A stretch of 27,751 bases of DNA from positions 1-27,751 of the IMG/VR virus record IMGVR_UViG_3300044638_002893; one strand, given 5' to 3'. Origin of the DNA: a virus. The notes under the pieces were generated by a model, which saw only the letters and a program-made list of their open reading frames with translations, ran no database searches and was not told the DNA's origin. Below, piece after piece: positions 3,573 to 13,384 of this stretch (its first letter is position 1; each line of letters starts with the position of its first letter). The position numbers were made by a program, and so were the translations under genes.

Positions 3573-3983
3573 ATGTTCCCTCTCGCTGAAATCCTAGGCA
3601 TCGGCACGAAGCTGATCGACAAACTGATTCCCGACCCCGAGGCAAAGGCCAAGGCGCAGTTGGAGTTGGCGCAGCTCGCGCAGAGCGGAGAGCTGGCGAA
3701 GATGAACGCGGACTTGGAAGCCTACAAGACCGAGCAGAGCAACTTGACCGACCGGCTCAAGGCGGACATGGCGTCGGATTCGTGGTGGTCAAAGAACATC
3801 CGCCCGATGACGCTGGCGGCAATCCTTGCGGGGTATTTCTTGTTCGCGGGGATGTCGGCGTTTGGCTACAACGCAAACGAGGCTTACGTCTCGCTGCTCG
3901 GTCAGTGGGGGATGCTCATCATGAGCTTTTATTTCGGGGGCCGCACGCTTGAGAAGATCATGGAGATGAGGGCCAAAAAATGA
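3573..3983 (+). CDS. Holin, GTA_holin_3TM-like
   Basis: A 136-residue protein. Residues 1-70 begin with a Pro/Leu-rich helix (MFPLAEILGIGTKLIDKLIPDPEAKAK in pieces) and a long amphipathic helix rich in Gln, Ala and Glu. After the SWWSKNIRP motif come two hydrophobic segments, about residues 79-96 and 105-122, then a short basic tail. This order (ALEI.G...IDKLIPDP, helix, W..K..RP, membrane pair) is the hallmark of the holin family first described for gene transfer agent release. Holins permeabilise the inner membrane and time lysis. The stop overlaps the next start by 4 bases (ATGA), so translational coupling is likely. The cell-wall enzyme lies some 15 kb away at 19387. Confidence 0.8.
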   Translation: MFPLAEILGIGTKLIDKLIPDPEAKAKAQLELAQLAQSGELAKMNADLEAYKTEQSNLTDRLKADMASDSWWSKNIRPMTLAAILAGYFLFAGMSAFGYNANEAYVSLLGQWGMLIMSFYFGGRTLEKIMEMRAKK

Positions 3984-6783: not shown

Positions 6784-6818
6784 AGCCCCACGCCTCACCG
6801 CGTGGGGCTTTTTGTTTT
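6784..6818 (+). terminator. Intrinsic terminator after the capsid gene
   Basis: A perfect 10-base-pair stem (agccccacgc at 6784-6793 with gcgtggggct at 6800-6809), a 6-base loop, and a T-rich run tttttgtttt at 6809-6818. It lies 22 bases after the capsid stop and before the glycosyltransferase start at 6862, so it should reduce read-through into the genes downstream. Confidence 0.9.
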
Positions 6819-6861
6819 GACGCTGCGGCGCGATTTGCCACACCGGAGGCAACACAACAAC

Positions 6862-8247
6862 ATGACGATCTCCCTCTGCGTGATTGCCGGTAATGAAACC
6901 GCGCACATCAAGACCATGCTCGATTCATTCGTCGGCATTATCGACGAACTCTCACTGGTGCGGGCCATCGGCTCGCAGGAACCGGACGACACCGAACAGC
7001 TCGCGCGGGACTGGTGCGAGCGCAACGCGGTCCCGATTGTCTTTTCGGACTACCGCAACGGGGTCACTGCGCAGGCGTGGCGGCACGTCGATTCGTTCGC
7101 GAGGGCGCGCAACCAAGCGTTCGCCCAAGGCACCGGCGATTGGCTTCTATGGGCCGACTGCGACGACGTGCTGACCGATGCGACGGACCTGCGGGAAAGG
7201 CTCAAGGAACTGACCGAGGACGTGCTCATGCTGCGATGCCCCTACGACGTGCGCGGCACCGGCAAGAAGCTGCAACGTGAGCGAATCATCCGCCGCACAG
7301 CGTTCGCCTCGGGGCGCGTCTGGCACCACGACGTCCACGAAAACCTGCTGTTGCTCCCGAACGATCTCCACAACGAGTGGACGGTGCCGGTTTGGCGGCA
7401 TCAGCCGGTGTCGATCAAGCAATCCAATCGCAAGCGCAACCTCGCAATCCTCGGGCGAAGCGTCGCGGAGTCGGCGACCCAATACTTCTACATCCACCAA
7501 GAGCACTACTGCGCGGGCAACAAAACCGCTGCCGAGCAGTTCGGGCGCATCGCGCTTTCCTTCCCGAATCTCGACGACTCGTTTCGCTACGAGGTGCAGC
7601 TGAACCTTGCGCGGCTCGTCGCGTCACGGCGCGAGGCGTTGCAATTCGCTATGGGTGCGCACGGGGTTTTCCCGTGGTGCCGCGAGGCCATCGCCTCGAT
7701 CATCATGCTCGCCTTTGAGCGCAACGACGGCAGGCGCGCGAGCTTCTGGGCGGAGCGGATGATGTCGCTACCGGAGCCGAAGGAAAAAGACCGACCGTGG
7801 ACGCACGAGGTGAAATGGTATGGCTGGGCCGGTCTCGATCTCGCTGCGCGGTCCTACCGGCTCGCGGACAATCCGAGGAAGGCGGACGGGCTCCAGTGGG
7901 CTTTTCACAAGCACGAGAAGCCCGCGATTCGGCTCACGCAGAAAACCCTCGGCGACTCGACGCGCTCGGTCTCCTTCCGCGAGGCGTGGCTTGGGACGGC
8001 AGCGCAACCGGAAACCGTCGAGCACGTTTTCCTTGTGCGCTCCGACGACAAGGAAACGATGGCGATGGCCAAGCAGTTCATCCACGACGTAGGACAGCCG
8101 CGGGCAACAGAGCGCGCGATGATCTCGGTGCACATCGAGGACGGCATGGTGCCGCCGCACGACTGGGACAAGCTCGTCATCGCAAGCGGCGTAACGCTCA
8201 TCGACGCCGAGAACATCAAAGAAATCCTCGTCACGAAGAAGCCGTGA
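6862..8247 (+). CDS. Glycosyltransferase family 2-like protein
   Basis: A 461-residue protein. I chose the ATG at 6862 (MTISLCVIAGNE) because it begins at the typical GT-A core and an earlier in-frame ATG (6802) lies inside the terminator; a GGAGG at 6846-6850 stands 11 bases upstream. The core shows the nucleotide-binding strand SLCVIAGNE (3-11), a DDTEQLARDW helix (about 42-51), RNQAFAQGTGDWLLWADCDD with the metal-binding DxD at Asp99-Cys-Asp101, and HHDVHE further on. From about residue 180 it is helical, TPR-like in feel, with a C-terminal 110 residues of unknown role. GT2 enzymes transfer a sugar from a nucleotide donor. Acceptor unknown; capsid, tail or host surface glycans are possible. 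It overlaps the next gene by 4 bases (GTGA). Confidence 0.75.
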   Translation: MTISLCVIAGNETAHIKTMLDSFVGIIDELSLVRAIGSQEPDDTEQLARDWCERNAVPIVFSDYRNGVTAQAWRHVDSFARARNQAFAQGTGDWLLWADCDDVLTDATDLRERLKELTEDVLMLRCPYDVRGTGKKLQRERIIRRTAFASGRVWHHDVHENLLLLPNDLHNEWTVPVWRHQPVSIKQSNRKRNLAILGRSVAESATQYFYIHQEHYCAGNKTAAEQFGRIALSFPNLDDSFRYEVQLNLARLVASRREALQFAMGAHGVFPWCREAIASIIMLAFERNDGRRASFWAERMMSLPEPKEKDRPWTHEVKWYGWAGLDLAARSYRLADNPRKADGLQWAFHKHEKPAIRLTQKTLGDSTRSVSFREAWLGTAAQPETVEHVFLVRSDDKETMAMAKQFIHDVGQPRATERAMISVHIEDGMVPPHDWDKLVIASGVTLIDAENIKEILVTKKP

Positions 8248-9208: not shown

Positions 9209-10107
9209 TTTCGATCTTCTCAGACACGAAGAAGCTGGAATTTGCGCTCGCGAGACTTGCCGACGCTGCAAAGGTCGATCTCGGTCTGGTCGTGAAACAG
9301 GAAGCCGCCTACGTCGCGAAGGCGATCATGCAGATCACGCCGCCCACCGGAGACAAAACCAAAAAAGGCGCGACGGTGGCGACGGTCACAGGCGGGGAGA
9401 TTACGAAAACCAAAGCGAGCGGACTCAGCACGAACGCAAGAAAGCAGGGCGAGAACGCGATTCTGGGCGACTTGTTCGGCGGAAATAAAATGGCCAAGGA
9501 ATTTCAGATTGGCTTGTTCCAGCGCATCGGAAACTCAACGGAGGTTCCGCCGCGCGGCGGGCGGCACGAGACGATGGGCGTCAGTCTGGGAAATGAAGGC
9601 GGCAAGAAAATCCGCATCTACCGGAAGTTCTGGCAGGAGTCGGCATCAATTGGAACGATGCGCGCTTTCCATTTCGCAAACCGAACCGAGCGCGGAAGAC
9701 GGAGGCAAGTTACGAGGAGTCTGGTGGGGCGCTGGGCGGTGCAGGACCAGATGTGGGTTTCGGAGCAGGCGGCGAATGCATATCTGAAATACACGCAAAA
9801 AAAGGTCGGACTCGCGAAGGCTGGATTCGCCGCTGCGGCAATGGCGTGCGGCGTGCGCGTGCCGTCGTGGATTCGCAAGCACATGGCAAAGGCTGGAAAC
9901 GCTCAGGTGCACTTTGGTCCGAATCCGTTCGTGGTCGCGCGGACTACCGGCAACCAGATTCCTGACCTCCAACGCGTGGTCGATGGCGCCTTGAAGATTC
10001 GTTACAAAATCACAATCTCGAAGTATCGCGCAATTCTTGCAAACCGCGCCGTCAATCTCGGCTTCACCCGCGTTGTCGGAGGGATGCCAATAAAATCTGA
10101 CGCATGA
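9205..10107 (+). CDS. Probable tail-completion/minor structural protein (gp10-like)
   Basis: A 300-residue protein starting in an ATGA overlap. The N-terminus (LEFALARLADAAKVDLGLVVKQEAAYVAKAIMQITPP in pieces) resembles the helix-plus-TPP motif of HK97 gp10-like tail-completion proteins, in which the N-terminal helix is followed by a proline-containing turn. It is about twice the usual length; the extra middle part is basic and Lys/Arg/Gly-rich (about 50-200), and the end carries IRYKITISKYRAILANRAVNLGF. It lies where completion proteins are normally found, upstream of the tail terminator and tube. The insertion and its somewhat less GC-rich sequence suggest a lineage-specific addition. Moderate confidence in the structural role, low in the exact family. 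Confidence 0.55.
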   Translation: MISIFSDTKKLEFALARLADAAKVDLGLVVKQEAAYVAKAIMQITPPTGDKTKKGATVATVTGGEITKTKASGLSTNARKQGENAILGDLFGGNKMAKEFQIGLFQRIGNSTEVPPRGGRHETMGVSLGNEGGKKIRIYRKFWQESASIGTMRAFHFANRTERGRRRQVTRSLVGRWAVQDQMWVSEQAANAYLKYTQKKVGLAKAGFAAAAMACGVRVPSWIRKHMAKAGNAQVHFGPNPFVVARTTGNQIPDLQRVVDGALKIRYKITISKYRAILANRAVNLGFTRVVGGMPIKSDA

Positions 10108-10535
10108 GCACACGCACCAACATCCGCAACGCGACGGCGAACGCTCTCACCGGCGCGCTCGTCGTGCCTACCGCGAACATCCTCCGCGGGCGCAATAACA
10201 CGATTGCGAGCATCTCGTTTCCCGCCGCCGCCGTCTATGCGGTCAGCGAGCAGATCGAGGTGCGCACGCTCGGGCCGAGCAACCGCACGCAATACCGGCA
10301 GCTTCAGCTCATCGTTGATTACTTCATCGCCGAAAGCGGAACGTATTTGATCGACGACCTTTTCGACACCGGCTCGGCAGCGGTCGAGGCGGCAGTTCTC
10401 GCCGACGTGACGCTCGGGGGGCAATGCCGCGATCTCCATCTTAACAGTGTGGACTATGTTATCGAGCCCGATGAAGACAAACGCTTCGGCACGGCTCGGC
10501 ACACTTTCAACTGCATCTATTTAACCACCGACTAA
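10104..10535 (+). CDS. Tail terminator-like protein (gpU-like)
   Basis: A 143-residue protein overlapping the previous gene by 4 bases. It starts with a helix (TNIRNATANALTGAL), followed by strands with VYAVSEQIEVRTLGPSNRTQYRQLQLIVDYFI, a helix with DDLFDTGSAAVEAAVLAD, and a C-terminal strand containing RHTFNCIYLTTD. This alternating fold and the order before the tube gene match minor tail protein U/tail terminators, which cap the growing tube and connect it to the head. The call depends on position and secondary-structure pattern. Confidence 0.65.
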   Translation: MSTRTNIRNATANALTGALVVPTANILRGRNNTIASISFPAAAVYAVSEQIEVRTLGPSNRTQYRQLQLIVDYFIAESGTYLIDDLFDTGSAAVEAAVLADVTLGGQCRDLHLNSVDYVIEPDEDKRFGTARHTFNCIYLTTD

Positions 10536-10536
10536 C

Positions 10537-10926
10537 ATGGCAAATCATCTCGGCCGCGAAGGCCTCGTCAAAATCTCCACCACTGCAATCGGCGAGCTGC
10601 GGAACTACAGCCTGTCGCATTCCTCGGACACCGTCGAAGATAGCGTGATCGGCGACACCTACCGCACGCGGCTCGCGACGATGAAAACGTGGAGCGCATC
10701 GGGCGATCTCTACTGGGACGAGACCGACGCGGGCCAGCTCCTTATCACCATCGGAAGCGTAGTGACGCTCAACCTCTACCCAGAGGGCGACACGAATGGG
10801 GATAGATACTACGGGGGCTCAGCGATCGTCACGAAATTCGACATTTCCGCCAGCTTTGACGGCATCGTGGAAGGCTCCATTGCCTTCGAGGGTAACGGCG
10901 CTCTGAGCACGCTGACCGCCTCCTAA
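10537..10926 (+). CDS. Major tail protein (tail tube)
   Basis: A 129-residue protein, one base after the previous stop. The N-terminus (MANHLGREGLVKIS..AIGELRNYSL) and C-terminus (FDISASFDGIVEGSIAFEGNGALS) are the paired strands characteristic of TP901-1/lambda-V-like tube proteins; the middle includes TRLATMKTWSASGDLYWDETDAGQ, also typical. It polymerises into the non-contractile tail tube around the tape measure. Its neighbours, terminator before and chaperone plus tape measure after, are in the canonical order. The short length shows no added Ig-like domain. Confidence 0.85.
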   Translation: MANHLGREGLVKISTTAIGELRNYSLSHSSDTVEDSVIGDTYRTRLATMKTWSASGDLYWDETDAGQLLITIGSVVTLNLYPEGDTNGDRYYGGSAIVTKFDISASFDGIVEGSIAFEGNGALSTLTAS

Positions 10927-10955: not shown

Positions 10956-11279
10956 ATGGAAGCAATCGACCTCGTCAGAGAACACTTCGCCTCCCTCGGC
11001 ACGCGCAAAATCGACGTGCCCGAATGGAAGCTCGTCGTCCACGCATCGCCGGTCACGCTCGGCGAAAAAAACCGGCTCTATCGTCGCAGCAAAGAGAATG
11101 ACATGGAGCTGCTCGTGGACATCTTGATTATGAAGGCCACGGACGAGCACGGCGCAAAACTCTTCACGATCGAGCACAAGCCGACGCTCTTGAACAAGGC
11201 CGACAGCAACGTCGTGGGACGCATCGCCAACGCCATTCTGGCCGAAAACGGGCCGAGGGCGGACGACTTAAAAAACTGA
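10956..11279 (+). CDS. Tail assembly chaperone, short form (gpG-like)
   Basis: A 107-residue protein in the reading frame that ends at the TGA at 11277, preceded by the A/C-rich leader gcaaaacacacacaacacaatg. It starts MEAIDLVREHF and contains DVPEWKLVVHASPVTLGEK, NDMELLVDILIMKATDEHG and VVGRIANAILAENG. Position, size and the frameshift signal at its 3' end mark it as the G-type tail assembly chaperone, which with its extended form coats the tape measure and recruits tube subunits. Abundant short and rare long forms are expected in a fixed ratio in such phages. Confidence 0.85.
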   Translation: MEAIDLVREHFASLGTRKIDVPEWKLVVHASPVTLGEKNRLYRRSKENDMELLVDILIMKATDEHGAKLFTIEHKPTLLNKADSNVVGRIANAILAENGPRADDLKN

Positions 11280-11437
11280 TTCACGGCGGAGAAGCTGCCG
11301 ACTTCCTCGCCGTGTATGCCCTCGCGGACCGTCTCGGCAAATTCGCAAGCGAAGTGCTCGCCATGCCAGCGCAGGAATTGAACGGCTGGCTCGTTTACAT
11401 CGAACATCAAAACCGGAAACTGAAGCATCATGGCTGA
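10956..11437 (+). CDS. Tail assembly chaperone, -1 frameshift extended form (gpGT-like)
   Basis: Reading shifts by -1 at the heptamer A AAA AAC (11270-11276). The frame then continues from CTG at 11276 to a TGA at 11435-11437, adding 53 residues for about 160 in all. The added part contains LIHGGEAADFLAVYALADRL, then FASEVLAMPAQELNGWLVYIEHQN, a hydrophilic helical T-type domain. It overlaps the tape measure start (11430) by 8 bases, as often happens. The span between the short-form stop and the tape measure has no other gene, which fits. A chaperone of this kind, made in about a few percent of the short form, is a conserved feature of long-tailed phages. The existence of the extension is read directly from sequence; its efficiency is inference. 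Confidence 0.85.
11255..11314 (+). promoter_or_regulatory. Programmed -1 ribosomal frameshift signal
   Basis: Three elements lie in order. A purine-rich GAGGG (11255-11259) lies 10 bases before the heptamer, like the internal Shine-Dalgarno stimulator in dnaX. The slippery heptamer A AAA AAC (11270-11276) is in the right phase (TTA AAA AAC). Five bases later a hairpin begins, with arms 11282-11294 and 11302-11314, 7-base loop, seven perfect pairs (cacggcg with cgccgtg) followed by one G-T pair, one mismatch and four more pairs. The zero-frame stop TGA (11277-11279) lies between heptamer and stem. Confidence 0.85.
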
Positions 11438-12782
11438 AGCTACATTCACATTGCGGGCGGTCGATGCGACTCGGGCGGCGTTTGCGAGCGCGCAGAACTC
11501 TCTGACCAAGCTCCATTCCACGGCGAAAATCGTCGGGACTGGAATGGCGACTTTCTTCGGATTCTCCGCAGCAATCGGAGGCGCGAGGAGACTGAACTCG
11601 GCAATGGAGGACGCGGAAAAGAACGCGAAGAAGCTCGGTTTAAGTAGTGAAGATTTGGATGCGCTAACCGTCGCGACAAACTTCGTCGATGTTGCGATGA
11701 TGAAGATGCAATCAACGGTCGCGAAGGGAATCGGTGCGTTTGCAAGACTGTTTTCGGGCGCTGGAACCGGAGCAGACGCAGCCGCAGCACGCATCACGCG
11801 CATTTCTCCAGAACTGGAAAAGCTCAAGAAGCAGGCCGATGACGTGCGCGATTCAATCTCGATGATTGGCGCAACGGACTCGGTGAAATTCGCAGCAATC
11901 GGTGACGAAATCGCGAAGATCAATCGAGAGATAGAGCAAAGCGACAAGTCCGTTGACGCCGAGAAAAATGCAGAGCGCGGCGTGAGGATTGCTGAGCTGC
12001 AAAAGTCGAAGGCCGAGATGGCTTACGCCGCTTTCAAGTCAATGGACGAAGCTAAGATTGCAGTCACAAAAACGGATGCGGATTATGCGATGTCGCTTCT
12101 ATCGGAAACAGAGCAACAGACGAAAAACAATGTCGCAATAAGAGAAAGGGAACAGGCGTTGGTCAGTTTAAAAGCGGCGCTCGGAGACAAAACCAAGCCA
12201 TTTGATTTCGCCACAGCTAGCCCGCGTGAAATTCAGATGATGGATGAAATGAAAAAGAAGCTTGGGGAATACAACGAACTCCTCGGTAAGCGTAAGGTCA
12301 TCGAAACCGACCTGCAAATCATCGCACGCAACGCGGGCAGCATGATCGCAAGCGGCTTCGAGGACGCAATTTTCAGCGGGCAAAAGCTCGGCGAGGTCAT
12401 CCGGTCGCTCGGCATGGATTTGATGCGGATGGTGTTTCAGCAGACCGTGACCGCTCCGCTGGCGGCGGGCATCAGCGGCGCAATCCTCAAGGGCTTCGGC
12501 GCTCGTGCAATGGGCGGACCTGTCAGCGCGGGTTCCCCCTACATGGTCGGCGAAAAAGGCCCCGAGCTATTCGTCCCCAGCTCCTCGGGCAGCATCGTGC
12601 CGAACGGCGCAATGGGCAGCAGCGGCGGGGGCTCGGGCGGCGTCACGGTCAATTACAACATCGCGGCAGGCGTCTCGCGCGCCGAGCTGGTGCCAATCCT
12701 CGAACAAGAGCGGCGGCGGCTCAAGGCCGAGATTCCTGACATGGTGCGCCGCGGGGGAAGCTATCGCGCAGCGTTCGCTTAA
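11430..12782 (+). CDS. Tail tape measure protein
   Basis: A 450-residue protein starting MAEATFTLRAVDATRAAFASAQNSL, the standard beginning of this family. It holds long alpha-helical, coiled-coil stretches (about 120-290, rich in Lys, Glu, Ala), hydrophobic helices at about 35-50, and a C-terminal domain containing ARAMGGPVSAGSPYMVGEKGPELFVP and SGSIVPN, a hallmark of lambda-H-like tape measure proteins. It sets tail length and helps DNA entry. It is short for the family; at about 1.5 angstrom per residue it suggests a tail around 65-70 nm, an estimate that assumes the usual rule. It lies directly after the chaperone, as expected. Confidence 0.85.
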   Translation: MAEATFTLRAVDATRAAFASAQNSLTKLHSTAKIVGTGMATFFGFSAAIGGARRLNSAMEDAEKNAKKLGLSSEDLDALTVATNFVDVAMMKMQSTVAKGIGAFARLFSGAGTGADAAAARITRISPELEKLKKQADDVRDSISMIGATDSVKFAAIGDEIAKINREIEQSDKSVDAEKNAERGVRIAELQKSKAEMAYAAFKSMDEAKIAVTKTDADYAMSLLSETEQQTKNNVAIREREQALVSLKAALGDKTKPFDFATASPREIQMMDEMKKKLGEYNELLGKRKVIETDLQIIARNAGSMIASGFEDAIFSGQKLGEVIRSLGMDLMRMVFQQTVTAPLAAGISGAILKGFGARAMGGPVSAGSPYMVGEKGPELFVPSSSGSIVPNGAMGSSGGGSGGVTVNYNIAAGVSRAELVPILEQERRRLKAEIPDMVRRGGSYRAAFA

Positions 12783-12787
12783 AAGTC

Positions 12788-13384
12788 ATGGCTATCTCCT
12801 ACCCGCTTTCTCCGCCGTCTCCGTTCAACCTTTCGCGGCTTTCGTTTACCGGCGTCTCGGCGACCTCGCGCAATACATCGCCGTTTACGATGCAGACCCA
12901 GCAATACAATTGGCCTGGGCAGGCATGGCTCGGCTCGGTCGATTGCCCGCCGATGGTGCGCGCGGATGCCGAGACCGTGATCGCGTTCCTGCTCGCGGCT
13001 CAACATGGCACGTTTTATTTCCAAGACTACGCCAACCCGACGAATCGCGGGGGCGTGACAGGGACGCTGACGGTCACGACCGCAACGGCCAATGGGACCA
13101 CGCTGACGTTCGGCGGCGCCACCGGCTCGTTCGCGCTCGGCGATTGGCTGCAAATCTCGACCTCGCTTTACAAGGTCATCCAAGTCAATTCGTCGTCATC
13201 CGTTGACGTGTTCCCCGTGCTGCGTTCGAGCTACGCCGCCAGCACGCCAATCATTTACGGCAAGCCCAACGACGCAGCTCGCGCGCAAGGCGTCTTTCGG
13301 CTCGCATCCGGCTCAACCGAGTGGTCGATCGACCTCGCGTCAATTTACGGCGTGAACTTCTCAATCATCGAGGACGTAGTATAA
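12788..13384 (+). CDS. Tail-tip protein (distal/minor tail protein)
   Basis: A 198-residue protein, beginning MAISYPLSPPSPFNLSRLSFTGVSATSRN. The N-terminal and C-terminal parts look like a split small beta barrel, interrupted by an insertion of about 65 residues containing GTLTVTTATANGTTLTFGGATGSFALGDWLQI in pieces. The final part (TEWSIDLASIYGVNFSIIEDV) closes the domain. Its place right after the tape measure fits a distal tail or gpM/gpL-like tip protein; I cannot assign a named family. Its stop overlaps the next start by one base (TAATG). Confidence 0.65.
   Translation: MAISYPLSPPSPFNLSRLSFTGVSATSRNTSPFTMQTQQYNWPGQAWLGSVDCPPMVRADAETVIAFLLAAQHGTFYFQDYANPTNRGGVTGTLTVTTATANGTTLTFGGATGSFALGDWLQISTSLYKVIQVNSSSSVDVFPVLRSSYAASTPIIYGKPNDAARAQGVFRLASGSTEWSIDLASIYGVNFSIIEDVV

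Follow-up and report, generated by a model that had tools for sequence, protein, structure and literature searches.

Sequence evidence for programmed -1 ribosomal frameshifting in a tail assembly chaperone gene of the lambda G/GT type

Introduction

In phage lambda, the tail assembly chaperone gene lies just before the tape measure gene and gives two products, G and GT. It is established that tail chaperone genes share a conserved -1 frameshift (Xu et al. 2004, cited in PMC5009743), and tools to annotate tail chaperone frameshifts exist (PMC10885494). The window, i.e. the whole stretch of DNA analysed here, is a virus record of 27,751 bases with a G+C content of 60%, in which a short chaperone-like gene ends on a slippery heptamer and is followed by an open -1 frame. 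The question raised by this locus is whether the gene codes for a second, longer product through a programmed shift of the ribosome, and which elements would promote it.

Results

The tail region of the window was delineated with PHROG profiles, which support a tail terminator gene (10104-10535), a tail tube gene (10537-10926), a tape measure gene on the plus strand (11430-12782; phrog_1538, E 9e-12) and a distal tail gene (12788-13384). Between the tail tube and tape measure genes, the position expected of a lambda G/GT-type gene, the plus strand carries a G-like tail assembly chaperone gene of 107 aa in the zero frame (10956-11279). Its end had been predicted at 11277, which is only the first base of the TGA codon occupying 11277-11279; the gene thus ends at 11279. 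Phrog_344 matches the G product with an E value of 3.4e-7. As for phrog_16513, a tail assembly chaperone profile that describes the protein and not the frameshift signal, it matches residues 5-152 of the 160-residue fusion (E 1.2e-10), vs. only about 1e-3 to 1e-2 for the G or T half alone. An AF2 model of G (mean pLDDT 83), built without rows from annotated phage records, is predicted to resemble the HK97 tail assembly chaperone 2ob9, its best PDB match (Foldseek E 3.3e-3, prob 1.00), and its matches among viral structures include named tail assembly chaperones. Family (phrog_344, phrog_16513) and predicted fold (2ob9) both point to a tail assembly chaperone. In Pfam, neither G nor the T part scored above the cut-off, TAC_13 remaining below it, and NCBIfam gave no confident match for G alone or T alone. 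The G profile compared with the sequences of solved structures gave chance-level matches only, the fold comparison doing better.

Two other genes of the window deserve mention. A family 2 glycosyltransferase gene (6802-8247; Pfam E 1.6e-7) has an odd location between the capsid gene and the tail genes, and a gene-transfer-agent 3TM-type holin (3573-3983; Pfam GTA_holin_3TM, E 1e-11) lies upstream of the capsid gene.

Viral contigs, genome contigs and phage records provided homologues of the chaperone locus, amounting to 196 sequences once duplicates had been removed; 88 of these are close relatives of the window, hereafter clade W. The genome contigs contributed only three relatives, one of them on a betaproteobacterial MAG contig. 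The heptamer A_AAA_AAC was located on the plus strand at 11270-11276, in the X_XXY_YYZ register required for a -1 shift and directly before the TGA stop (11277-11279), as had been predicted. It is invariant in all 88 members of clade W and abuts the stop in every one of them, as it does in 67/67 sequences of the HTVC026P (pelagiphage) clade and 34/37 of the DSL-LC06 clade; in the remaining three DSL-LC06-type relatives, it stands one codon earlier. The heptamer reads AAAAAAG in HTVC112P and HTVC111P. In Rhodobacter phage RcCronus, where it is GGGAAAC, the chaperone CDS is annotated as joined, i.e. in two pieces.

The Leu codon preceding Lys-Asn drifts between T and C at its first base, while its last base, the first A of the heptamer, never changes, even though about 6% of the Leu codons in the window genes end in A; given Leu-Lys-Asn, the heptamer has a joint probability of about 0.016. 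A second in-register AAAAAAC, on the plus strand at 11066-11072 (codons E-K-N), served as an internal control and is not a functional site: it drifts, being intact in only 30/87 relatives and 5/25 clusters.

Beyond the stop, the -1 frame of the plus strand forms a T-like extension of 53 codons plus TGA (11276-11437, with the stop at 11435-11437), where slipped reading would resume with CTG ATT CAC and yield a GT fusion of 160 aa. The predicted length and end of this extension were correct; rather than exactly filling the gap, however, it overlaps the tape measure gene, which starts with an ATG at 11430, by 8 nt. This overlap of the GT stop and the tape measure ATG, ATGGCTGA (11430-11437), is kept in 76 of the 88 distinct relatives. 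The slippery site near the end of G is therefore accompanied by an open -1 frame that reaches the tape measure gene, the layout of lambda G/GT. Before the heptamer, pN/pS in clade W is 0.165 in the zero frame and above 1 in the others; after the stop, it is 0.244 in the -1 frame vs. 1.48 in the zero frame and 1.94 in the third one (47 clade-W sequences). The constrained frame thus switches at the junction. No stop codon was found in the downstream -1 frame of these 47 sequences, and the T part, which is predicted to fold into three helices, can be aligned between all clades, its A, E and W columns being fixed. The homologue alignment proposed as a check of the original prediction therefore came out in its favour, for the heptamer as for the downstream frame.

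These figures also bear on two other explanations of the two frames. Readthrough of the UGA, or a sequencing error, is given practically no credence: the zero frame of the window is indeed open for some 30 codons past the TGA, but it is the unconstrained one after the stop, it is closed by stops in 47/47 relatives, and the identity of the chaperone stop itself varies among TGA, TAA and TAG in the distinct homologues. Since the change of frame is found in about 190 distinct genes, it is not a sequencing error. Alternatively, the -1 ORF could be an independent small gene that has a start codon of its own and is translationally coupled to the G stop, as some annotators have it; the T part corresponds to phi3LM21_p41, annotated as a distinct gene. 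Such a gene is extremely improbable, because no ATG, GTG or TTG is conserved near the junction, the GTG at 11312 being replaced by GTT or GTC in half of the relatives, and because a start at the sole conserved ATG (codon 29) would leave out the ADRL region, which is conserved. It would furthermore leave unexplained both the invariant heptamer and the phrog_16513 match across the fusion.

Two candidate stimulators flank the heptamer. Upstream, a Shine-Dalgarno (SD)-like GAGGG lies on the plus strand at 11255-11259, 10 nt before the heptamer. The purine stimulator predicted there is thus present, although its exact letters are found in only about 12/88 close relatives, and what is kept is an SD-like element, detected by the published SD rule (Sharma et al. 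2014, PMC4066793) in 74 of the 88. By cluster, the rule is satisfied in 16/26 vs. 3.8 expected, and the corresponding z-score of 7 overstates the evidence, since the clusters share ancestry and are not phylogenetically independent. Codon -7 is AGG or AAG in 84/88 clade-W sequences; where it is AAG (Lys), a G always follows, so that either GAGG or AAGG is kept. The Arg codon in the element is AGG in 43/44 cases, against a background of 6.5%. Compared with synonymous recodings, the SD duplex energy is only modestly low, with a median p of 0.2 per cluster.

Downstream, a putative stimulatory hairpin (11282-11314, plus strand) begins after a 5-nt spacer, exactly where it had been predicted, and comprises 13 stem positions and a 7-nt loop. 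Its stem pairs 11282-11294 with 11302-11314, with 12 pairs and one A.C mismatch in the window, where a folding energy of -17.6 kcal/mol (z -2.1) was computed for the 49 nt beginning at the stop. A hairpin located 4-10 nt after the motif, as in the rule of Sharma et al. 2014 (PMC4066793), was found in 84/88 clade-W sequences, the median energy being -19 kcal/mol. The mean hairpin energy is -21.4 kcal/mol vs. -15.2 kcal/mol for recodings that keep the -1 protein and its codon usage; the observed hairpins beat such recodings in most clusters, and the hairpin is the most stable 38-mer of the gene region. Concerning covariation, which had been proposed as a further check, the pairing is kept through some paired changes, three stem pairs being altered on both sides (one of them from C-G to U-A, another from G-C to C-G), but the signal is limited: in most pairs of the stem, a single partner varies or neither does, and shuffles equalled the number of doubly changed pairs 94 times out of 500.

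Could both elements be mere by-products of GC-rich coding, the heptamer alone being of importance? The base composition of the window, the modest result of the SD duplex test and the one-sided or absent variation of most stem pairs speak for this possibility. We nevertheless regard it as unlikely, given the comparison with recodings of the same codon usage, the rank of the hairpin as the most stable spot of the gene region, the near-exclusive use of AGG for Arg and the retention of AAGG in the Lys variants. As judged from these sequences, the conservation of both stimulators in clade W exceeds what chance at the codon level would give.

Another strong fold, likewise conserved, was observed near the start of the chaperone gene (10985-11035), about 285 nt before the stop, where the mean energy in 24 clusters is -17.7 kcal/mol. 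It may serve to control the translation of the chaperone, or may have arisen by chance from GC-rich coding.

The stimulators vary greatly between clades. In the DSL-LC06 clade, an SD-like GAGG is found at another spacing in 26/34 sequences and a weak hairpin in 10/34. In the HTVC026P clade, SD-like elements are found in 0/67 and marginal hairpins in 4/67, and the heptamer sits within an invariant run of nine A (A9), whereas the run is only A6 in the window and in all 88 close relatives. It would thus seem that stimulators turn over between clades, while the heptamer and the stop stay. That all these loci represent one orthologous site, with a fixed heptamer plus stop and a clade-specific set of stimulators (SD and strong hairpin in clade W; mostly SD alone, at another spacing, in DSL-LC06; neither in the pelagiphages, in which, owing to the A9, transcriptional slippage may have taken over), is a tentative interpretation, plausible though not the one we would bet on.

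Such slippage of the RNA polymerase on the A run, instead of slippage of the ribosome, might also be invoked for the window itself. The pelagiphage A9 would lend itself to it, being invariant, devoid of SD and hairpin, and long enough for an RNA polymerase slip. The run of clade W is another matter, as A6 is generally too short for slippage by bacterial RNA polymerase, and the ribosomal stimulators are conserved in the window and its close relatives. A fused message of transcriptional origin is accordingly very unlikely there, and ribosomal frameshifting is retained as the explanation.

The annotation of the relatives was also inspected. A matching GT product is missing from the records of HTVC026P, HTVC112P, HTVC202P, HTVC111P and DSL-LC06, those in which it was looked for. 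In HTVC112P and HTVC111P, two of these four pelagiphages, hypothetical ORFs on the minus strand (gp41 and gp45) are annotated over the -1 extension instead. Relatives of HTVC026P and HTVC202P display the invariant A9 before the stop, with neither SD nor hairpin. In Sinorhizobium phage phi3LM21, the slippery AAAAAAC lies one codon ahead of the G stop, and p41, a 'hypothetical protein' (L087:2396-2506), falls within the -1 frame T part and ends with it.

Discussion

The chaperone gene, one of the lambda G/GT type, almost certainly undergoes programmed -1 ribosomal frameshifting at this site. The majority of ribosomes would decode TTA AAA AAC and terminate at the TGA, giving G (107 aa). A minority would pause while the Lys and Asn tRNAs occupy A_AAA_AAC, aided by the pairing of the upstream GAGG with the 16S rRNA and by the downstream hairpin; the tRNAs would then re-pair one base back on AAA AAA, and translation would proceed through CTG ATT CAC to give GT (160 aa). 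By analogy with lambda, G would coat the tape measure protein and the T part would recruit the major tail protein. We infer both the slippage on the ribosome and these roles, and its rate is probably between a few per cent and tens of per cent. For comparison, the gpG:gpGT ratio in lambda is about 30:1, G binding the tape measure protein and T the tail tube protein (PMC5009743), and rates of 6-7% were measured for two genes of an HK97-like chaperone cluster (PMC3711429). A_AAA_AAC is a weak heptamer of low efficiency in E. coli (PMC4066793), which makes the conservation of stimulators understandable, as they would lift the site to the level needed.

The window resembles lambda G/GT in having, just before the tape measure gene, a chaperone gene for which two products are predicted, with the -1 shift placed close to the end of G. 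The overlap with the following gene is shared as well, the T/H overlap of lambda being ATGGCTGA, letter for letter that of GT and the tape measure gene here. This lambda-like layout, 8-base overlap included, makes an identical role the most reasonable reading. The differences lie in the heptamer (G_GGA_AAG in lambda vs. A_AAA_AAC), in the length of T (about 144 residues vs. 53) and in the conserved SD-like element and strong hairpin that characterise the window. The T part is weakly colinear with the start of lambda T, and homology to it is not claimed because of the weakness of the profile match (hhalign probability 6.7); a profile comparison of G with lambda G found nothing.

The cassette had been described as dnaX-like, which is right for its layout and wrong for its product. 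As in E. coli dnaX, an SD-like element about 10 nt upstream, an A6 heptamer and a stem-loop some 5 nt downstream are found together. In dnaX, however, the heptamer is A_AAA_AAG, the gene is unrelated, and the slip leads into an early stop, so that the shifted product is the short one, whereas the slip in the window avoids a stop and extends the protein; neither A_AAA_AAG nor a truncated shifted product was found there. The dnaX frameshift rate is about 50%. The cassette would thus work like dnaX, but is not dnaX. Annotated phage frameshift sites lie on average 26-36 nt from the stop (PMC10885494), unlike the heptamer of the window, which abuts it; this arrangement is already known from other frameshift genes, dnaX variants with a stop directly after the site having been described (PMC5009743). 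An upstream SD plus a downstream structure are likewise found in IS911 (IS3), and A_AAA_AAC is used by a proven IS cluster, with no established stimulator in that cluster (PMC4066793), although the IS911/IS3 and IS1 transposases are proteins unrelated to the chaperone. The joint presence of both stimulators, which had been called less usual, is indeed uncommon and yet not new, since SD and hairpin occur together in nine of the 69 clusters that Sharma et al. 2014 surveyed (PMC4066793). As far as its sequence tells, the site is a well-supported and ordinary lambda G/GT-type frameshift whose stimulators resemble those of dnaX and IS911, and its mechanism is a textbook one.

The present analysis settles the annotation of the 160-aa GT product. 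Moreover, the approximately 190 distinct homologous sites, with their fixed heptamer and varied stimulators, constitute a resource on how phages tune their frameshift rate.
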